DNA of 21,236 nt from a virus, in the IMG/VR virus record IMGVR_UViG_3300040856_000649, positions 1-21,236 of that record; one strand, given 5' to 3'. Under the pieces are notes generated by a model that was given only the letters and a program-made list of their open reading frames with translations, did no database searches and was not told the DNA's origin. The position numbers and the translations under genes are program-made. This document shows positions 1,427 through 9,256 of the stretch, one piece after another; position 1 is the first letter of the stretch, and each line of letters starts with the position of its first letter.

Positions 1427-1434
1427 TATTTATA
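1427..1434 (-). promoter_or_regulatory. Candidate late promoter (TATAAATA) for the minus-strand methyltransferase
   Basis: The plus strand reads TATTTATA, which is exactly the T4 late consensus TATAAATA on the minus strand. It is about 47 bases upstream of the start codon at 1380. It faces the plus-strand late box at 1396-1403, so the two transcripts would overlap at their 5' ends. Confidence 0.55.
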
Positions 1435-1944: not shown

Positions 1945-1973
1945 TTGACATTTATATACAAATAGTGTATAAT
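1945..1973 (+). promoter_or_regulatory. sigma70 promoter P1 (uvsY-uvsW unit)
   Basis: TTGACA at 1945-1950 and TATAAT at 1968-1973 with a 17-base spacer, both perfect consensus, in the context CTATTGACATTTATAT. It begins 7 bases after the preceding stop codon. The expected transcription start is about 1980, giving a leader of about 24 bases. Confidence 0.9.
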
Positions 1974-2003: not shown

Positions 2004-2441
2004 ATGGACACAAATGATATAGCGGCCATTTGGGCGCAAGACTCACCAATTGATGAAACGAACTTGGTCGGTGAAAGTAAAAGAATTCCCCAACTTCATA
2101 GTAAGTACTATAATCTTTATTATAGAGAAGTCTTACGTGTAAAGAAACTTAAAGCCGAATATAAAGAACTTGAAATGGAGAAGCGTAATTATTACGACGG
2201 CTCAATGGATGAGTTAACTTTAAAGGAAAAAGGTTGGAAGCCGTTTCAGTTAAAAGTATTAAGAAACGATTTAGACAAATACATTCAAGCAGATAAAGAT
2301 ATTATTAAGTTAAGTCTTACAATTGATTTCCATAGCGCAAATGCAAACTATCTTGAAGATATAATTAAAACAATACACAGTAGGAATTTTGTAATTAAGA
2401 ATATGATTGATATTCTAAAATTCCAATCCGGAGATTATTAA
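2004..2441 (+). CDS. uvsY: UvsY recombination mediator
   Basis: 145 residues, close to the T4 protein. UvsY loads the UvsX recombinase onto ssDNA covered with gp32. The sequence fits marine UvsY proteins: an N-terminal IWxxDSPIDETNL segment, IPQLHSKY at about residues 28-35, a charged helix with RVKKLKAEYKELEMEKRNYYDG, then LKEKGWKPFQLKVLRNDLDKY and a C-terminal helix ending near IKNMIDILKF. It is the first gene after P1, followed with a one-base TAATG overlap by a small membrane protein and then uvsW, matching the uvsY/uvsW linkage of T4-like phages. No strong Shine-Dalgarno is seen in the leader. uvsX and gene 32 are not in this window. Confidence 0.85.
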   Translation: MDTNDIAAIWAQDSPIDETNLVGESKRIPQLHSKYYNLYYREVLRVKKLKAEYKELEMEKRNYYDGSMDELTLKEKGWKPFQLKVLRNDLDKYIQADKDIIKLSLTIDFHSANANYLEDIIKTIHSRNFVIKNMIDILKFQSGDY

Positions 2442-2665
2442 TGTACAATAAATTTATGGAATGGGCGTGGAAGCAGGAAGATGAGATAAAACCTGAACCT
2501 AAAGTAATTGATATGATGGCAGATGATGTTGACCCAAACGAGGTCACCATTGAAAATGCTTATAAGACAAGATGGATTTGGTATCATACTATTTTAGCAA
2601 TAGGTATCTTTTTCACTAACATATTATTAACAGCAATCCTGGTGGTCTTGGCACTTAAATTATGA
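2441..2665 (+). CDS. Small single-pass membrane protein between uvsY and uvsW
   Basis: 74 residues. The N-terminal 40 are polar and acidic (MEWAWKQEDEIKPEPK, then MADDVDPNEV). Residues about 47-70 form one hydrophobic segment ending in LALKL, so this is probably a single-pass membrane protein. It shares one base with the uvsY stop (TAATG) and four with the uvsW start (ATGA), so it is translationally coupled to both. I recognise no family. Its place inside a recombination operon could reflect a membrane anchor, but that is a guess. Confidence 0.7.
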   Translation: MYNKFMEWAWKQEDEIKPEPKVIDMMADDVDPNEVTIENAYKTRWIWYHTILAIGIFFTNILLTAILVVLALKL

Positions 2666-4152
2666 GTGAACGAATAGAAGTAGAATATATTAATTCGGTA
2701 TATATGCGTATCAAAGCAGATGCGGGTATGAAGTCTGAATTATCTGAGTTCTTTGCTTTCAAACCTGAAGGTTATCAATTCAGTCCAAAATATAAAGCAA
2801 GAGTATGGGATGGTACAATTCGTTTGTTTCAACCTATGCGACCTGTTCTATATGTTGGTTTATATCCTCACTTACAAAAGTTTTGCGAACAGCGCGATTA
2901 TATATTAGATGCTCCATCTGAAATTGGTGAAAAGGAAATTATTGAAAAAGGTTATGTTGAAGAACTTGCGGAATCTATTAGTTGTAAGTTCAAGCCTCGT
3001 GATTATCAGATAGAGTATATTGAAAATGCGTTAAAGAATCGTAGGTCTTTATCACTATCTCCGACTTCATCAGGTAAGTCGTTAATCATTTATTTAATTC
3101 AGCAGCACTATTATCAAACATTTGGTTTACGGACATTGATTATTGTTCCGACCATTTCATTAGTACATCAAATGTCAGGTGACTTTGTAGATTATGGTTG
3201 TGAAGATGAAATATACACAATTCAAGGCGGAGTAGATAAAAACACCAAAGCTCCTATTGTTATCTCTACATGGCAATCTTTAATTAAACAGCCCAAGGAT
3301 TGGTTCCGTCAATTTGGTTGTGTGATGGGAGATGAGGCTCATACCTTTCAAGCAAAGTCATTAACAAAAATTATGCATAACCTTGAGGACTGTCAATTCC
3401 GTCATGGATTTACAGGTACACTCAAATCTTCAGAAAGCAAAACACATAGGTTAGTATTAGAAGGTTGCTTTGGAGAAGTTAAGAAGGTTATATCAACGAA
3501 GAAACTTATGGACGAAGGTACTGTTGCTAACTTTGAAGTTAAGGCAATTGTATTGAATCATAGTAACGAAGCAAAACAAAACTTTAAGAAAGCAATGGCA
3601 AGTGTAAAGGAATCAGTTCGTAAATGGCCTGCTGAAAGAGAATTTATTGTTAACCATGAAAAGAGAAACAATTTTATTCGTAATCTCGTTCATTCTCTTG
3701 AAGACCAAAACAATTTGATTCTATTTGACTTGGTTGAGAAACATGGTAAGATCCTTGCTCCTTTATTAGAAAAAGAAGGACGTGAGTTACATTTTATATA
3801 CGGTGCAACAAAAGGAGAAGAACGTGAAAGAATTCGACATTTGGTTGAAAATGATCCTAACAAGAAACATGATATTCTTGCCTCATACGGAGTATTTAGT
3901 ACCGGTGTTAATATACGTAGGCTCGACAATGTAATCTTTGCCTCTTCGAGTAAATCGGAGATTAAAGTATTACAATCAATTGGTAGAAGTTTGCGTAAAG
4001 CGGAGGACTCGCAGAATGCGGTCCTCTATGATATCGCTGATGATTTATCGGTGGGGAGTTTTGAAAATTATACTCTCAAACACTTTAAACAGAGAATTGA
4101 GATTTACTCGACTGAGGAATTTCCATTTAAAATATTTACAATTGACATTTAA
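2662..4152 (+). CDS. uvsW: UvsW recombination helicase
   Basis: 496 residues, about the length of T4 UvsW (503). This superfamily 2 helicase branch-migrates Holliday junctions, regresses forks and unwinds R-loops, which in T4 shuts down origin-dependent initiation. In order: an N-terminal beta-rich domain (residues 1-105), RDYQ at 113-116, Walker A PTSSGKS at 134-140, DEAH at 224-227, motif III TGT at 251-253, and motif VI QSIGRSLR at 438-445. All helicase motifs appear intact. The start overlaps the upstream stop as ATGA. A perfect-consensus promoter on the opposite strand just beyond its 3' end points back into this gene. Confidence 0.95.
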   Translation: MSERIEVEYINSVYMRIKADAGMKSELSEFFAFKPEGYQFSPKYKARVWDGTIRLFQPMRPVLYVGLYPHLQKFCEQRDYILDAPSEIGEKEIIEKGYVEELAESISCKFKPRDYQIEYIENALKNRRSLSLSPTSSGKSLIIYLIQQHYYQTFGLRTLIIVPTISLVHQMSGDFVDYGCEDEIYTIQGGVDKNTKAPIVISTWQSLIKQPKDWFRQFGCVMGDEAHTFQAKSLTKIMHNLEDCQFRHGFTGTLKSSESKTHRLVLEGCFGEVKKVISTKKLMDEGTVANFEVKAIVLNHSNEAKQNFKKAMASVKESVRKWPAEREFIVNHEKRNNFIRNLVHSLEDQNNLILFDLVEKHGKILAPLLEKEGRELHFIYGATKGEERERIRHLVENDPNKKHDILASYGVFSTGVNIRRLDNVIFASSSKSEIKVLQSIGRSLRKAEDSQNAVLYDIADDLSVGSFENYTLKHFKQRIEIYSTEEFPFKIFTIDI

Positions 4153-4181
4153 CTTAGATATACCTTAAAGCCGATAGACTT

Positions 4182-4210
4182 ATTATACAAGGAGTTCGGA
4201 GACTTGTCAA
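4182..4210 (-). promoter_or_regulatory. Antisense sigma70 promoter aimed into uvsW
   Basis: On the minus strand, TTGACA (4210-4205) and TATAAT (4187-4182) are both perfect with a 17-base spacer. The box is preceded by CTA, giving the same CTATTGACA core as the forward promoters. It is divergent from P2, and the two are symmetric about position 4235 across an AT-rich segment that could act as a shared UP element. The transcript would start near 4175 and run antisense through uvsW. No convincing leftward gene lies nearby; the next is at 1380. Confidence 0.75.
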
Positions 4211-4266
4211 TAGAAAAAATGAAAAAAGTTTAATTAATTTCATATTTGTACATTGTCTATTGACAA
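4204..4266. repeat. 11-bp inverted repeat formed by divergent promoter -35 regions
   Basis: Bases 4204-4214 (TTGTCAATAGA) are the exact reverse complement of 4256-4266 (TCTATTGACAA). The arms hold the -35 boxes of the antisense promoter and of P2. The 41 bases between are very AT-rich and include the palindrome TTAATTAA at 4230-4237. It could serve as a bidirectional promoter or a regulator site, or fold as a hairpin in read-through RNA. Confidence 0.8.
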
Positions 4267-4288
4267 AACAGCAAATATAGATTATAAT
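4260..4288 (+). promoter_or_regulatory. sigma70 promoter P2 (gene 55 unit)
   Basis: TTGACA at 4260-4265 and TATAAT at 4283-4288 with a 17-base spacer, preceded by CTA. Unlike the other forward promoters it is over 100 bases from the preceding stop codon, because the divergent antisense promoter lies in between. The leader is about 28 bases and contains AAGGAG. Confidence 0.9.
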
Positions 4289-4322
4289 AACTACTAATTT
4301 AATACAAGGAGACTAGCTTGAA

Positions 4323-4805
4323 ATGGCTAAGAAAAGAAATTACGTAAACAACAAAGATCTCCTTGCCGCATTAATTGATTATAGAGAAAGATGCGCTGAG
4401 GCAGAAGAATGTGGAGAAACTAATCCACAAGTACCCGATTATATCGGTAAATGTATTATGATGATTGCACAAAGATTGGCAACAAGACCAAACTTCAGCG
4501 GTTATATGTATAAGGAAGAAATGATTTCAGACGGAATTGAAAACTGCCTACAATATATACATAACTTTAATCCAGAAAAATCTCAAAACCCATTTGCTTA
4601 TTTTACTCAAATCATTTGGTATGCATTCCTAAGAAGGATCTCTAAAGAGAAAAAGCAAATGTATATCAAGTTCAAAGCATCCCAAAGACAAATGCATGAC
4701 AATGAAGTATTTGATTCTATGGGACAAGAGGTAACTGGCAATCAGCTACCTGACTATATTAACGAATTCATTGATGACTTCGAAAATAAACTAAAGAAAA
4801 AATAA
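4323..4805 (+). CDS. 55: Late-transcription sigma factor gp55
   Basis: 160 residues (T4 gp55 is 185). gp55 replaces host sigma70 on RNA polymerase, recognises the TATAAATA late box and works with the sliding clamp and gp33. The sequence has a sigma region-2-like core: YKEEMISDGIENCLQYIHNF, then FNPEKSQNPFAYFTQIIWYAFLRRISKEKKQ at about residues 82-111. The start is the ATG at 4323, 11 bases after AAGGAG (4306-4311); the nearer TTG at 4318 is out of frame. Late-type boxes elsewhere in the window (1396, 1427, 13385, 17567) are its expected targets. The C-terminus is basic (KLKKK) and lacks an obvious terminal clamp-binding peptide. Confidence 0.88.
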   Translation: MAKKRNYVNNKDLLAALIDYRERCAEAEECGETNPQVPDYIGKCIMMIAQRLATRPNFSGYMYKEEMISDGIENCLQYIHNFNPEKSQNPFAYFTQIIWYAFLRRISKEKKQMYIKFKASQRQMHDNEVFDSMGQEVTGNQLPDYINEFIDDFENKLKKK

Positions 4806-4815
4806 TAAGGACGTA

Positions 4816-5247
4816 ATGAAAGTATTAGTATTTGGATTACCAGGTAGTGGTAAGAGCACGTTATCAGAACCGCTCGCAGAGCAGGTTGAAGGTGTCTGGA
4901 TTAACGCAGACGCAGTAAGAGAAAAATATAATGATTGGGATTTCAGCACTGAAGGCCGAATGAGGCAAGCAGCTCGTATGAGACATCTCGCAGACGGAGT
5001 AAGTATGGCAGGTAAGATTGCGATTACTGATTTCGTTTGTCCTTTTCAAAAGGCAAGAGATGAGTTTGAACCTGATTATGTTATTTGGATGAATACTATT
5101 GAGGAAGGTAGATTTGAAGATACGAATAAAGTATTTGAAGCTCCTCATCCTGATAGTATTGATTATATAGTCGATGCATTTCGTCCAAATGAAGAATTGA
5201 AAATTGAACCAATTCTAGAAAAGGCTTTTAGACAATGGCAGAGTTAG
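4816..5247 (+). CDS. P-loop kinase, adenylylsulfate (APS) kinase-like
   Basis: 143 residues beginning with a Walker A loop, GLPGSGKST at residues 7-15. WINADAVREKYNDWDFS matches the APS-kinase pattern of a nucleotide/substrate-contacting aspartate and arginine, and RFEDTNKVFEAP is typical of CysC-like proteins. APS kinase converts adenylylsulfate to PAPS. The protein is shorter than bacterial CysC (about 200), so a related small-molecule kinase is possible. AAGGA precedes the ATG by about 5 bases, and the gene follows gp55 by 10. It overlaps the DUF2061 gene by 13 bases. Family is fairly sure; substrate is inferred. Confidence 0.7.
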   Translation: MKVLVFGLPGSGKSTLSEPLAEQVEGVWINADAVREKYNDWDFSTEGRMRQAARMRHLADGVSMAGKIAITDFVCPFQKARDEFEPDYVIWMNTIEEGRFEDTNKVFEAPHPDSIDYIVDAFRPNEELKIEPILEKAFRQWQS

Positions 5248-5453
5248 AAAAGAAACGTCATTTGGCAAAAGCAGTGACATGGAGAATCATCGCATCGACA
5301 GTTACCGCTCTCATTGCATTATATTTTGGTTTACCTCAAAAAGCAGTAGGCGCAGTATTCTTTGCTGATTTGGTGATAAAGTTTTTCTTGTATTATGGTC
5401 ATGAAAGATTATGGTATAAGTATATAAAATATGGAGTAAAGCAAAATGTTTGA
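5235..5453 (+). CDS. DUF2061-type small membrane protein
   Basis: 72 residues. The N-terminal KKRHLAKAVTWRIIASTVTA is characteristic of the DUF2061 family of predicted membrane proteins. Two hydrophobic segments lie at about residues 19-32 and 37-55, with a basic aromatic tail (HERLWYKYIKYG). The biochemical role of the family is not known. Its start lies inside the end of the APS-kinase-like gene and its end overlaps the next gene by 8 bases, so the three are tightly coupled. I recall DUF2061 proteins occurring with APS-kinase-like domains in marine bacteria, which would fit here, but I could not check that. Confidence 0.75.
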   Translation: MAELEKKRHLAKAVTWRIIASTVTALIALYFGLPQKAVGAVFFADLVIKFFLYYGHERLWYKYIKYGVKQNV

Positions 5454-5871
5454 CATGGAGAACGCATTCGATTTTAAGAAACCAACAGTTCAAATGTTGG
5501 GAAGATGGCAACCTTGGCATGAAGGTCATACAAAATTATTTGAAAAGGCCTTGACATTGACGGGACAAGTTGTTATAATGGTACGTGAAGTATATGGATT
5601 TGAAGGTGATGCTGGTGCAGGACGCACTGTTGCTCAAACCGATAATCCTTTTGGAGAGATTGCTGTCATTGACGGTATTAAGAAAGGTCTTGGTGATGCG
5701 GGCTATGAAGAAGGTCGCGAATATATGATTATGGCCGTTCCTAATATCGTCGACATCAGTTACGGTCGTGGAGTAGGTTATACATTTACAGAACACGATC
5801 TTGGTGAAGATGTACATAAAATCTCTGCAACCAAAATTCGCGAACAAATGAGAGAAGAAGGTAAATTATGA
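5446..5871 (+). CDS. HIGH-superfamily nucleotidyltransferase (adenylyltransferase-like)
   Basis: 141 residues. GRWQPWHEGH at about residues 19-28 is the nucleotide-binding HxGH loop, and ISATKIR at 126-132 is the second signature (ISxTxxR). The fold is that of nucleotidyltransferases such as NadM-type NMN adenylyltransferase or the small ATP-sulfurylase-like enzymes; the motif TDNPF also recalls these groups. Next to an APS-kinase-like gene, an adenylyl transfer to sulfate or to a pyridine nucleotide are both possible. The start overlaps DUF2061 by 8 bases and the end overlaps def as ATGA. A perfect sigma70 promoter lies inside the reading frame at 5551-5579. Confidence 0.78.
   Translation: MFDMENAFDFKKPTVQMLGRWQPWHEGHTKLFEKALTLTGQVVIMVREVYGFEGDAGAGRTVAQTDNPFGEIAVIDGIKKGLGDAGYEEGREYMIMAVPNIVDISYGRGVGYTFTEHDLGEDVHKISATKIREQMREEGKL
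5551..5579 (+). promoter_or_regulatory. Intragenic sigma70 promoter ahead of def-47-46
   Basis: TTGACA at 5551-5556 and TATAAT at 5574-5579 with a 17-base spacer, both perfect, inside the nucleotidyltransferase reading frame (codons for LTLTGQVVIM). It lacks the upstream CTA of the other promoters. It would start a transcript near 5586 covering def, 47 and 46 without gene 55. A chance full match with ideal spacing in coding DNA is unlikely but not excluded. Confidence 0.6.
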
Positions 5872-7521: not shown

Positions 7522-9233
7522 TGCGAATTAATTTTGAGAAGGTAAAATATAAAAACATATTATCCACAGGAAATGTATATACAACCATTGAACTAAATCA
7601 AGTACCTAGTACATTAATTGCTGGGTCAAACGGTTCAGGCAAATCCACATTGCTTGATGCAATTGTATTTGGGTTATACGGTCGACCTTTCCGTAATATC
7701 AATAAAGCACAGCTTGTTAACTCTATTAATAATAAAGAACTTGTTGTAGAATTATATTTTAATGCTGGCGGTGATAAGTATATGATTCGTCGTGGTATTA
7801 AACCAAACATCTTTGAAATTTGGAAAAACGGAGCAATGATAAATCAAGACGCATCAGTTCGTGATTATCAAGAGTTCCTTGAATCTAATATTCTAGGTAT
7901 TAACTTTAAAGCTTTTAATCAAATTGTAGTACTTGGTTCTGCTACTTATATTCCTTTTATGGAATTGCGTGCATATCAACGTCGTGAGATTATTGAAGAC
8001 TTGCTTGATATTGGTGTGTTCTCTGTTATGGGTACATTAGCAAAAGATCGTATGTCAAGTATTAAGACTGAAATCAATGACAACAAATATGAGATTGAGA
8101 TTACAGAAAACAATATGCAATCAGCTGAAGAGAACAACGAAGAGATTCGTAAACTTAAAACAGTTGAGGTTGATAAGATTAAAGAAAAGATGTCTGAACA
8201 TATTGACTTAATTGAAGAAAAGAATACTCGCATTGATACTCAAGATGAAATACTTAAAGTACTATACGATGATATATCTGATAAACTTGATGAGAAACAA
8301 AAATTCCAAGATGCTACAGAAAAAAGAGCAGAGCTTGAAAGAAATCGTATTGCGTTTGATAAGGAACTATCCTTTTACGAACATAACGATGATTGTCCAA
8401 CTTGTAAGCAAGGTATTGCTCATGATTTCAAAGAAGGTCAGATTATAGAAAAGAATCAAAAGAAAGCTCAAATTGAAACAAGTCTTCAAGCAACAGGTAT
8501 AGTTATTAAGAAACATCAAGAAAGACTAAATGCAATTTCAAAAATTGAAGAACAGATACAAGAAATCAACTTTAAGATATCTGAAATCCGAGCTGAGATT
8601 AAAATGTCGAAGAACGCGCTGATTACATACAAGAAAGACTTAGACAATGCTCAGAAAGAGGTTGATGAAGTTGATACAAGTAAGATTGATAATCTACAGA
8701 AGAAATTAAATAAGCAAATAGAGATACGAACAAAGCTACTCGATGAACATGAAGTATTGAATATTGTGCAAACTATTTTAAGAGATGGTGGTATCAAAGC
8801 TAAGATCATATCTCAGTACATTCCTGTTATTAATAAACTCATCAACAAGTATCTTGCAGCATTTGACTTATTTGTTGACTTTCAATTGGATGAAGAGTTC
8901 AATGAAGTTATTCGTTCTAGGTTCAGAGACAAATTTACTTATGCTAGTTTTTCAGAAGGTGAGAAACTACGTATCACATTATCAATTATGTTGGCGTGGA
9001 GGTCTGTTGCGAAACTTCGTTCTTCCGTATCCACTAACTTATTGATACTTGATGAAACTCTTGACGGCGCTTTAGATGGCGTAGGTATTGAGAGTTTAAT
9101 TGAAACACTACATGGGTTGAATTCCGATGACAATATCTTTGTGATATCACATCGTGGAGACCAATTTGCTGAAAAGTTTGAAAACAACCTTAAGTTTGAG
9201 AAACTCAAGAACTTCTCCGAGCTCGCAGCATAA
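7521..9233 (+). CDS. 46: gp46 recombination endonuclease subunit (Rad50/SbcC-like ATPase)
   Basis: 570 residues (T4 gp46 is 560). Walker A is GSNGSGKST at 35-43. Two long coiled-coil arms flank a zinc-hook CPTC at 292-295. The ABC signature is FSEGEKLR at about 477-484, Walker B LLILDE at 507-512, and the switch histidine is in ISHRG near 546. It is the ATPase partner of gp47. The gene is followed directly by a sigma70 promoter and gene 43; the clamp, clamp-loader and regA genes found between 46 and 43 in T4 are absent here. Confidence 0.95.
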   Translation: MRINFEKVKYKNILSTGNVYTTIELNQVPSTLIAGSNGSGKSTLLDAIVFGLYGRPFRNINKAQLVNSINNKELVVELYFNAGGDKYMIRRGIKPNIFEIWKNGAMINQDASVRDYQEFLESNILGINFKAFNQIVVLGSATYIPFMELRAYQRREIIEDLLDIGVFSVMGTLAKDRMSSIKTEINDNKYEIEITENNMQSAEENNEEIRKLKTVEVDKIKEKMSEHIDLIEEKNTRIDTQDEILKVLYDDISDKLDEKQKFQDATEKRAELERNRIAFDKELSFYEHNDDCPTCKQGIAHDFKEGQIIEKNQKKAQIETSLQATGIVIKKHQERLNAISKIEEQIQEINFKISEIRAEIKMSKNALITYKKDLDNAQKEVDEVDTSKIDNLQKKLNKQIEIRTKLLDEHEVLNIVQTILRDGGIKAKIISQYIPVINKLINKYLAAFDLFVDFQLDEEFNEVIRSRFRDKFTYASFSEGEKLRITLSIMLAWRSVAKLRSSVSTNLLILDETLDGALDGVGIESLIETLHGLNSDDNIFVISHRGDQFAEKFENNLKFEKLKNFSELAA

Positions 9234-9237
9234 ACCT

Positions 9238-9256
9238 ATTGACATTCCCTGTCAAT
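9238..9256. repeat. Inverted repeat over the -35 of the gene 43 promoter
   Basis: ATTGACA (9238-9244), a 5-base loop, then TGTCAAT (9250-9256): a perfect 7-bp inverted repeat that includes the -35 box. The related promoter P7 has a looser version upstream (TGTCAA at 15842-15847). It could be an operator for a dimeric repressor, or chance. Confidence 0.45.

Follow-up and report, generated by a model that had tools for sequence, protein, structure and literature searches.

A conserved leftward promoter with a covarying start-site dyad upstream of gene 55 in marine T4-like phages

Why should a T4-like phage keep a perfect promoter that points away from any gene? The question is raised by a viral DNA fragment of 21,236 nucleotides (IMG/VR record IMGVR_UViG_3300040856_000649, positions 1 to 21,236), hereafter the window. 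It is a piece of a T4-like genome with genes for gp19, UvsY, UvsW, gp55, gp47/46-type proteins, the DNA polymerase gp43 and thymidylate synthase, among others. A Megablast search of phage records with the window returned no matches. The identity of its UvsW to those of cultured phages reaches about 45% at most, while UvsW relatives in IMG/VR form a continuous gradient from 100% identity downwards. The late block (structural genes, uvsY and uvsW) meets the early/replication block (gp55, gp47 and gp46) between uvsW and gp55, and it is here that two promoters diverge (Table 1). An earlier reading of this DNA, made from the letters alone (the sequence-only reading), had proposed that the leftward promoter makes an RNA antisense to uvsW that keeps the gene off early in infection, UvsW being late in T4 (PMC3016281).

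Table 1. Features of the uvsW–gp55 junction and its surroundings (positions in the window unless a record is named)
Feature	Position	Strand	Basis or remark
Late-promoter motif TATAAATA	1427..1434	-	47 nt upstream of the FkbM-type methyltransferase gene 682-1380 (leftward)
Early promoter, perfect	1945..1973	+	At head of the uvsY-orf-uvsW operon
uvsY	2004..2441	+	Pfam UvsY, E 2e-28
uvsW helicase	2662..4152	+	Pfam UvsW_N, ResIII, Helicase_C; leftward RNA would be antisense
Predicted initial transcribed stretch before entry into uvsW antisense	4153..4174	-
Start-site dyad AAGTC-TATC-GGCTT, about -6 to +8	4168..4181	-	Arms covary, loop length varies
Expected transcription start, 7th base after -10	4175..4175	-	Predicted from sigma70 geometry; in TAT(C) here
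Leftward promoter -10 box TATAAT, 17-bp spacer	4182..4187	-	Sequence, conservation
Inverted-repeat left arm, extended -35 TCTATTGACAA of leftward promoter	4204..4214	-
Leftward promoter -35 box TTGACA	4205..4210	-	Sequence
Inverted-repeat right arm, extended -35 TCTATTGACAA of rightward promoter	4256..4266	+
Rightward promoter TTGACA-17-TATAAT, drives gp55	4260..4288	+	Sequence, conservation
gp55, late sigma factor	4323..4805	+	PHROG 234, E 4e-63
Equivalent of start 4175, P-HM2	~120,709		NC_015284
Equivalent of start 4175, S-PM2	84,439		NC_006820
Equivalent of start 4175, Syn9	123,698		NC_008296

Both promoters lie exactly where that reading had placed them, the forward one as the mirror image of the leftward one, and the centre between them is about 80% AT. 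It was also right that no leftward gene starts here, since no leftward open reading frame of at least 40 aa begins at the site. The window contains ten copies of TTGACA-N17-TATAAT, nine on the plus strand and the leftward promoter as the only one on the minus strand; dinucleotide shuffles of the window gave a mean of 0.06 and a maximum of 1. The 11-bp inverted repeat that had been described around the AT-rich centre is real and forms part of a 14-nt, 93% pair, but it does not stand as an independent feature, because it consists of the extended −35 sequence CTATTGACA of the two promoters in opposite orientations. The form CTATTGACA(TT) is common to most of the ten perfect promoters of the window, and relatives keep the boxes without their flanks.

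Conservation of the leftward boxes in relatives had been set beforehand as the test on which the promoter claim could fail. Among 68 distinct uvsW–gp55 intergenic regions of relatives, all 12 box positions are present in 58 and at least 10 of the 12 in 63, whereas shuffled intergenic regions gave 12/12 in none of 1360 tries. Perfect matches are more frequent at the leftward promoter than at the promoter of gp55 itself (48/68), and the former is retained down to about 68% UvsW identity. Across the loci of relatives, distinct perfect promoters number 137 on the plus strand, 48 on the minus strand at the site of the element and two on the minus strand elsewhere, one of which is probably the element itself in a truncated contig (L078). 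Five of the 68 regions lack the element, four through deletion of the block, with gaps of 74–77 nt, and one (L143) with a gene in its place; some lineages can evidently do without it. These losses are what might be cited for regarding the boxes as chance matches or a functionless relic, a reading to which we give next to no weight: with 0.06 sites expected per window and perfect matches in excess of those at the gp55 promoter, conservation has already refuted it. With TTGACA and TATAAT boxes, a spacing within 16–18 bp and conservation, the leftward site has the features of a sigma70-type early promoter, and on sequence grounds we are highly confident that it is real and conserved. In two further regions the insertion lies on the gp55 side of the element, which still adjoins uvsW. 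Each of the three regions has a different single open frame (234 aa in L143, 182 aa in L050 and 201 aa in L080), and the uvsW–gp55 junction is a gene-insertion hot spot.

The element extends well beyond the window lineage. The cyanophage S-CAM3 has the same layout upstream of gp55, and a scan with its gp55 yielded 77 distinct cyanophage-type upstream regions, every one of which has the leftward promoter with at least 10 of the 12 positions. TTGACA is whole in 81 of 82 cyanophage-type loci, TTGAC is invariant in the cyanophage alignment, and the triplet at the expected start, TAT(C) in the window, is TGT in cyanophages, where it is invariant in 27 diverse cyanophage-type sequences. Cultured phages with the element include S-CAM1, S-RSM4, S-RIM8, S-RIM32, P-HM2, Syn9 and S-PM2; it is annotated in none of the cultured-phage records that were opened. 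In a third clade, to which the Melnitz phages of Methylophilales belong, most forms match at 9–12/12, often with TTGACT and TATATT. Melnitz-3 itself gave no match of at least 9/12, and no comparable element is found at gene 55 of T4. Genomes usually carry one copy, and one genome (G012) carries two.

What, then, would such a promoter make? A conserved leftward promoter without a leftward gene implies that an RNA would start near 4175, antisense to uvsW, and would enter the 3′ end of uvsW after about 22 nt. No conserved open reading frame follows the promoter among relatives, and a leftward small protein was rejected on this ground. No leftward intrinsic-terminator-like site occurs between 4175 and 1380, and in Rfam nothing reached the gathering score for ten related loci, the window giving chance-level hits only at E<=5. 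Judged from the DNA, a near-consensus sigma70 promoter is under strong selection here with no conserved coding behind it.

That the RNA exists specifically to silence uvsW early, as the sequence-only reading had it, would be in keeping with a conserved promoter whose transcript runs antisense to this gene, but we regard it as distinctly unlikely. The genes uvsY, orf and uvsW overlap in an operon headed by a perfect sigma70 promoter of its own at 1945. Of 70 distinct relatives, 52 keep this promoter at 12/12 and 61 at 11/12 or better, and the late motif NATAAATA is present at this operon in only three of the 70. The sequence argues for early expression of uvsW in the window lineage, which runs counter to the premise that the gene is off at that stage. 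Moreover, the antisense stretch of uvsW has no extra synonymous conservation, its last codons being below average. In S-CAM3, S-RSM4, S-CAM1, S-RIM8, S-RIM32, S-PM2, P-HM2 and Syn9 a different gene, usually annotated as 'methylamine utilization', separates the element from uvsW; what is conserved is therefore not the antisense target. The further suggestion that a long antisense RNA might reach the leftward methyltransferase gene fares no better, as this gene is 2.8 kb away and has its own late motif, TATAAATA. The highest synonymous conservation in uvsW is found at its first codons (window 2662–2700, z about 3), perhaps a translation-start or overlap effect.

The sequence-only reading had the promoter right and missed a second feature of the site: a dyad that directly follows the leftward −10 box and holds the expected +1 in its loop. 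Relatives have dyads of quite different sequence, such as TGGAT-TATC-ATCCA (L065), AACCG-TGTGG-CGGTT (L210), ATGAG-TGTG-CTCAT (L221) and GGG-TATGTA-CCC (L297). Covariation was tested in 54 dissimilar sequences, with the geometry chosen by Watson–Crick pairs alone and the 3′ arms shuffled among sequences. Read with the proviso that the shuffle counts are not probabilities and overstate independence, because the sequences are related, the dyad has 172 Watson–Crick cells against 131.7 ± 5.0 in shuffles (reached in 0/500), whereas the plus gp55 promoter has 93 against 93.1 and hence no dyad; in a fixed register, cells changed on both sides number 16 against 7.5 in the cyanophage set and 19 against 6.1 in the window lineage (0/500 each), the count in the alignment of the latter being weak with a 4-base loop and the 5-base register fitting better. 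All four of four pairs are formed at 50% of leftward elements as against 2–5% of plus promoters. The dyad is poor or absent in L136, L152, L157, L190, L194 and L235. As a general class of promoter it was rejected, two large cyanophage contigs having given chance-like cases only.

Mismatches at the dyad are informative about how it might act. A.C cells are depleted (3 against 10.2 expected) and G.T cells are not, and this bias together with the variable loop favours pairing within a single strand of the minus sense over a protein operator. On the operator reading, a dimeric regulator from the phage or the host would bind the dyad and control the leftward promoter; like many repressor sites, the dyad does have its centre at the start site. 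However, its half-sites are not fixed but vary freely among close relatives, with a spacing of 3–7 bases, and A.C mismatches are rarer than G.T, so that we consider an operator very unlikely. The predicted RNA fold is weak, at −2.4 kcal/mol for the window dyad and about −2 to −5 kcal/mol across dyads. With a start at the seventh base, the 5′ arm (about −6 to −2) would be untranscribed; the expected product is then not obviously an RNA hairpin, and a fold would need the non-template DNA strand. As a promoter design, a covarying hairpin around a bacterial transcription start whose 5′ arm falls in the untranscribed discriminator would be out of the ordinary.

The explanation we favour, at somewhat under an even chance, is that two conserved promoters diverge where the late block borders the early one, and that the element is the leftward member of this pair. 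Host RNA polymerase would use the leftward promoter early, as it would other consensus promoters, and would make from it an RNA that runs leftward without being translated, antisense to the gene whose 3′ end lies there, whichever that is (uvsW in the window); we infer the expression, timing and length of this RNA from the DNA. Since different genes occupy the target position and the antisense stretch is unconstrained, action in cis is most likely, rather than specific pairing with uvsW, and we propose, a little more tentatively than the account as a whole, that early, leftward, untranslated transcription acts in cis at the late/early junction. The effect could come about through transcription or strand opening, as interference with the late block or as its antisense cover, a tentative suggestion drawn from the position of the element. 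The dyad (about −6 to +8) would lie in the DNA melted at initiation and could fold in the non-template strand, where it might set opening or escape.

The bias towards pairing in the minus-sense single strand would also suit a replication origin. Here the leftward transcript would stay annealed as an R-loop and its 3′ end would prime leading-strand synthesis, while the displaced non-template strand would form the hairpin at the start site and so keep the bubble open or mark the site of helicase loading. The element is usually single in the genome (G012, again, has two) and adjoins uvsY and uvsW, the region of oriF in T4. The T4 origins oriF (at uvsY) and oriG each combine a promoter with an AT-rich unwinding element of exchangeable sequence (PMC3016281), which would account for the absent downstream conservation here; as a promoter with AT-rich DNA near uvsY/uvsW and an unconserved downstream sequence, the element may resemble them. 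In cyanophages the DNA that follows the promoter is of lower stability than most of the locus (median 89th percentile), although low stability and AT-richness are usual at gene ends and in intergenic DNA. The T4 origins, however, are MotA middle promoters, and the review of them makes no mention of hairpins, at the start site or otherwise (PMC3016281), whereas the −35 box of the element is the sigma70 consensus TTGACA rather than a MotA-type sequence. GC skew has no clear turning point at the site, and T4, in which gene 55 is located elsewhere, has no such element at that gene. An R-loop origin seems unlikely to us, and slightly more so in its widest form, as a family-wide origin of marine T4-like phages in which, next to uvsW, the gene of the R-loop helicase, a covarying non-template hairpin accompanies a transcript that primes early replication.

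Alternatively, RNA polymerase held at the leftward promoter might compete with the gp55 promoter and so act as a switch for the late sigma factor. The promoter pair is nearly always upstream of gp55, and in cyanophage-type regions the two −35 boxes are usually only a few bases apart, which means that both promoters could not be occupied simultaneously. In the window lineage, by contrast, the boxes are 49 bp apart, with room for two polymerases side by side, and L050 and L080 have genes between the element and gp55. Such a switch fits the cyanophages better than the window lineage, and for the element as a whole we hold it to be improbable.

The conserved leftward promoter, on any of these accounts, belongs to a family in which antisense transcription has been noted before (PMC10976474). 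CfrI is a cis-antisense RNA of cyanophage S-PM2 (Millard 2010, described in PMC2984593 and PMC9602691). As far as these descriptions go, it resembles the RNA predicted here in being leftward and untranslated, in running antisense over the 3′ end of a cyanophage gene, and in the virus family concerned; it differs in that it lies at psbA/F-CphI and its expression is proven, whereas the element lies at gene 55, with a predicted RNA and a start-site dyad. The S-PM2 record contains both loci, CfrI as an annotated feature and the gene 55 element. In the lineage of the window, psbA was not found in eight related contigs. Antisense transcription of gene 32 in T4 (Belin 1987, cited in PMC3014915) likewise affects a replication gene of a T4-type phage, but it is a different gene, and no family-wide conserved promoter or dyad was seen for it in the literature covered. 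Early sigma70 promoters of T4-like cyanophages (PMC2984593) share with the element the consensus −35 and −10 boxes and the use of unmodified host polymerase; unlike the leftward promoter, other early sigma70 promoters have no covarying dyad at +1, and the leftward one points away from any gene. No description of the element was found in the literature covered, the main Syn9 transcriptome paper lying outside it. Antisense RNA in T4-like cyanophages is therefore known, and the leftward gene 55 promoter with its start-site dyad appears to be new. Few viruses of the sea are as common as the marine T4-like phages, and a near-invariant element that occurs in Syn9, S-PM2, P-HM2 and S-RSM4 suggests that these phages have a step in common where early and late genes meet, whether antisense control, gp55 control or origin use. 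Strand-specific RNA-seq of P-HM2 on Prochlorococcus MED4 is public (GSE79359).

Several smaller observations concern the other promoters and repeats. The nine perfect plus promoters in the 21 kb begin at 1945, 4260, 5551, 9239, 11857, 13525, 14094, 15856 and 20082 and mostly have the extended −35 sequence CTATTGACATT, an unusually uniform early-promoter set. The promoter at 5551–5579 lies within the open reading frame 5446–5871 and lacks the CTA extension that most others have; it is possibly an internal promoter of the peptide deformylase gene at 5868. The same frame is the second half of a split member of kinase family phrog_10255, of which 4816–5247 is the first half, with a 72-aa open reading frame between them. 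The plus promoter at 9239 is overlapped by a second promoter-like site on the minus strand (9227–9255, TTGACA-17-TATGCT, 10/12), which points towards the end of the gp46 gene. An exact repeat, ATACAAGGAG, occurs at 4185–4194 and 4302–4311, so that the ribosome-binding region of gp55 recurs within the leftward promoter; it is seen only in the window and its close relatives. A small rightward open reading frame from a TTG/ATG at 4203, with an SD-like AAGGAG, was discarded, as it occurs in some relatives only and the −35 context, read on the other strand, supplies its ATG. The second copy of the element in G012 (L238 1196–1224; G012 97995, plus strand) lies upstream of a tRNA-like sequence, and the arms of its hairpin promoter, AGCAATGTGGCGCTTT, are identical to those of the gp55 copy in the same genome.
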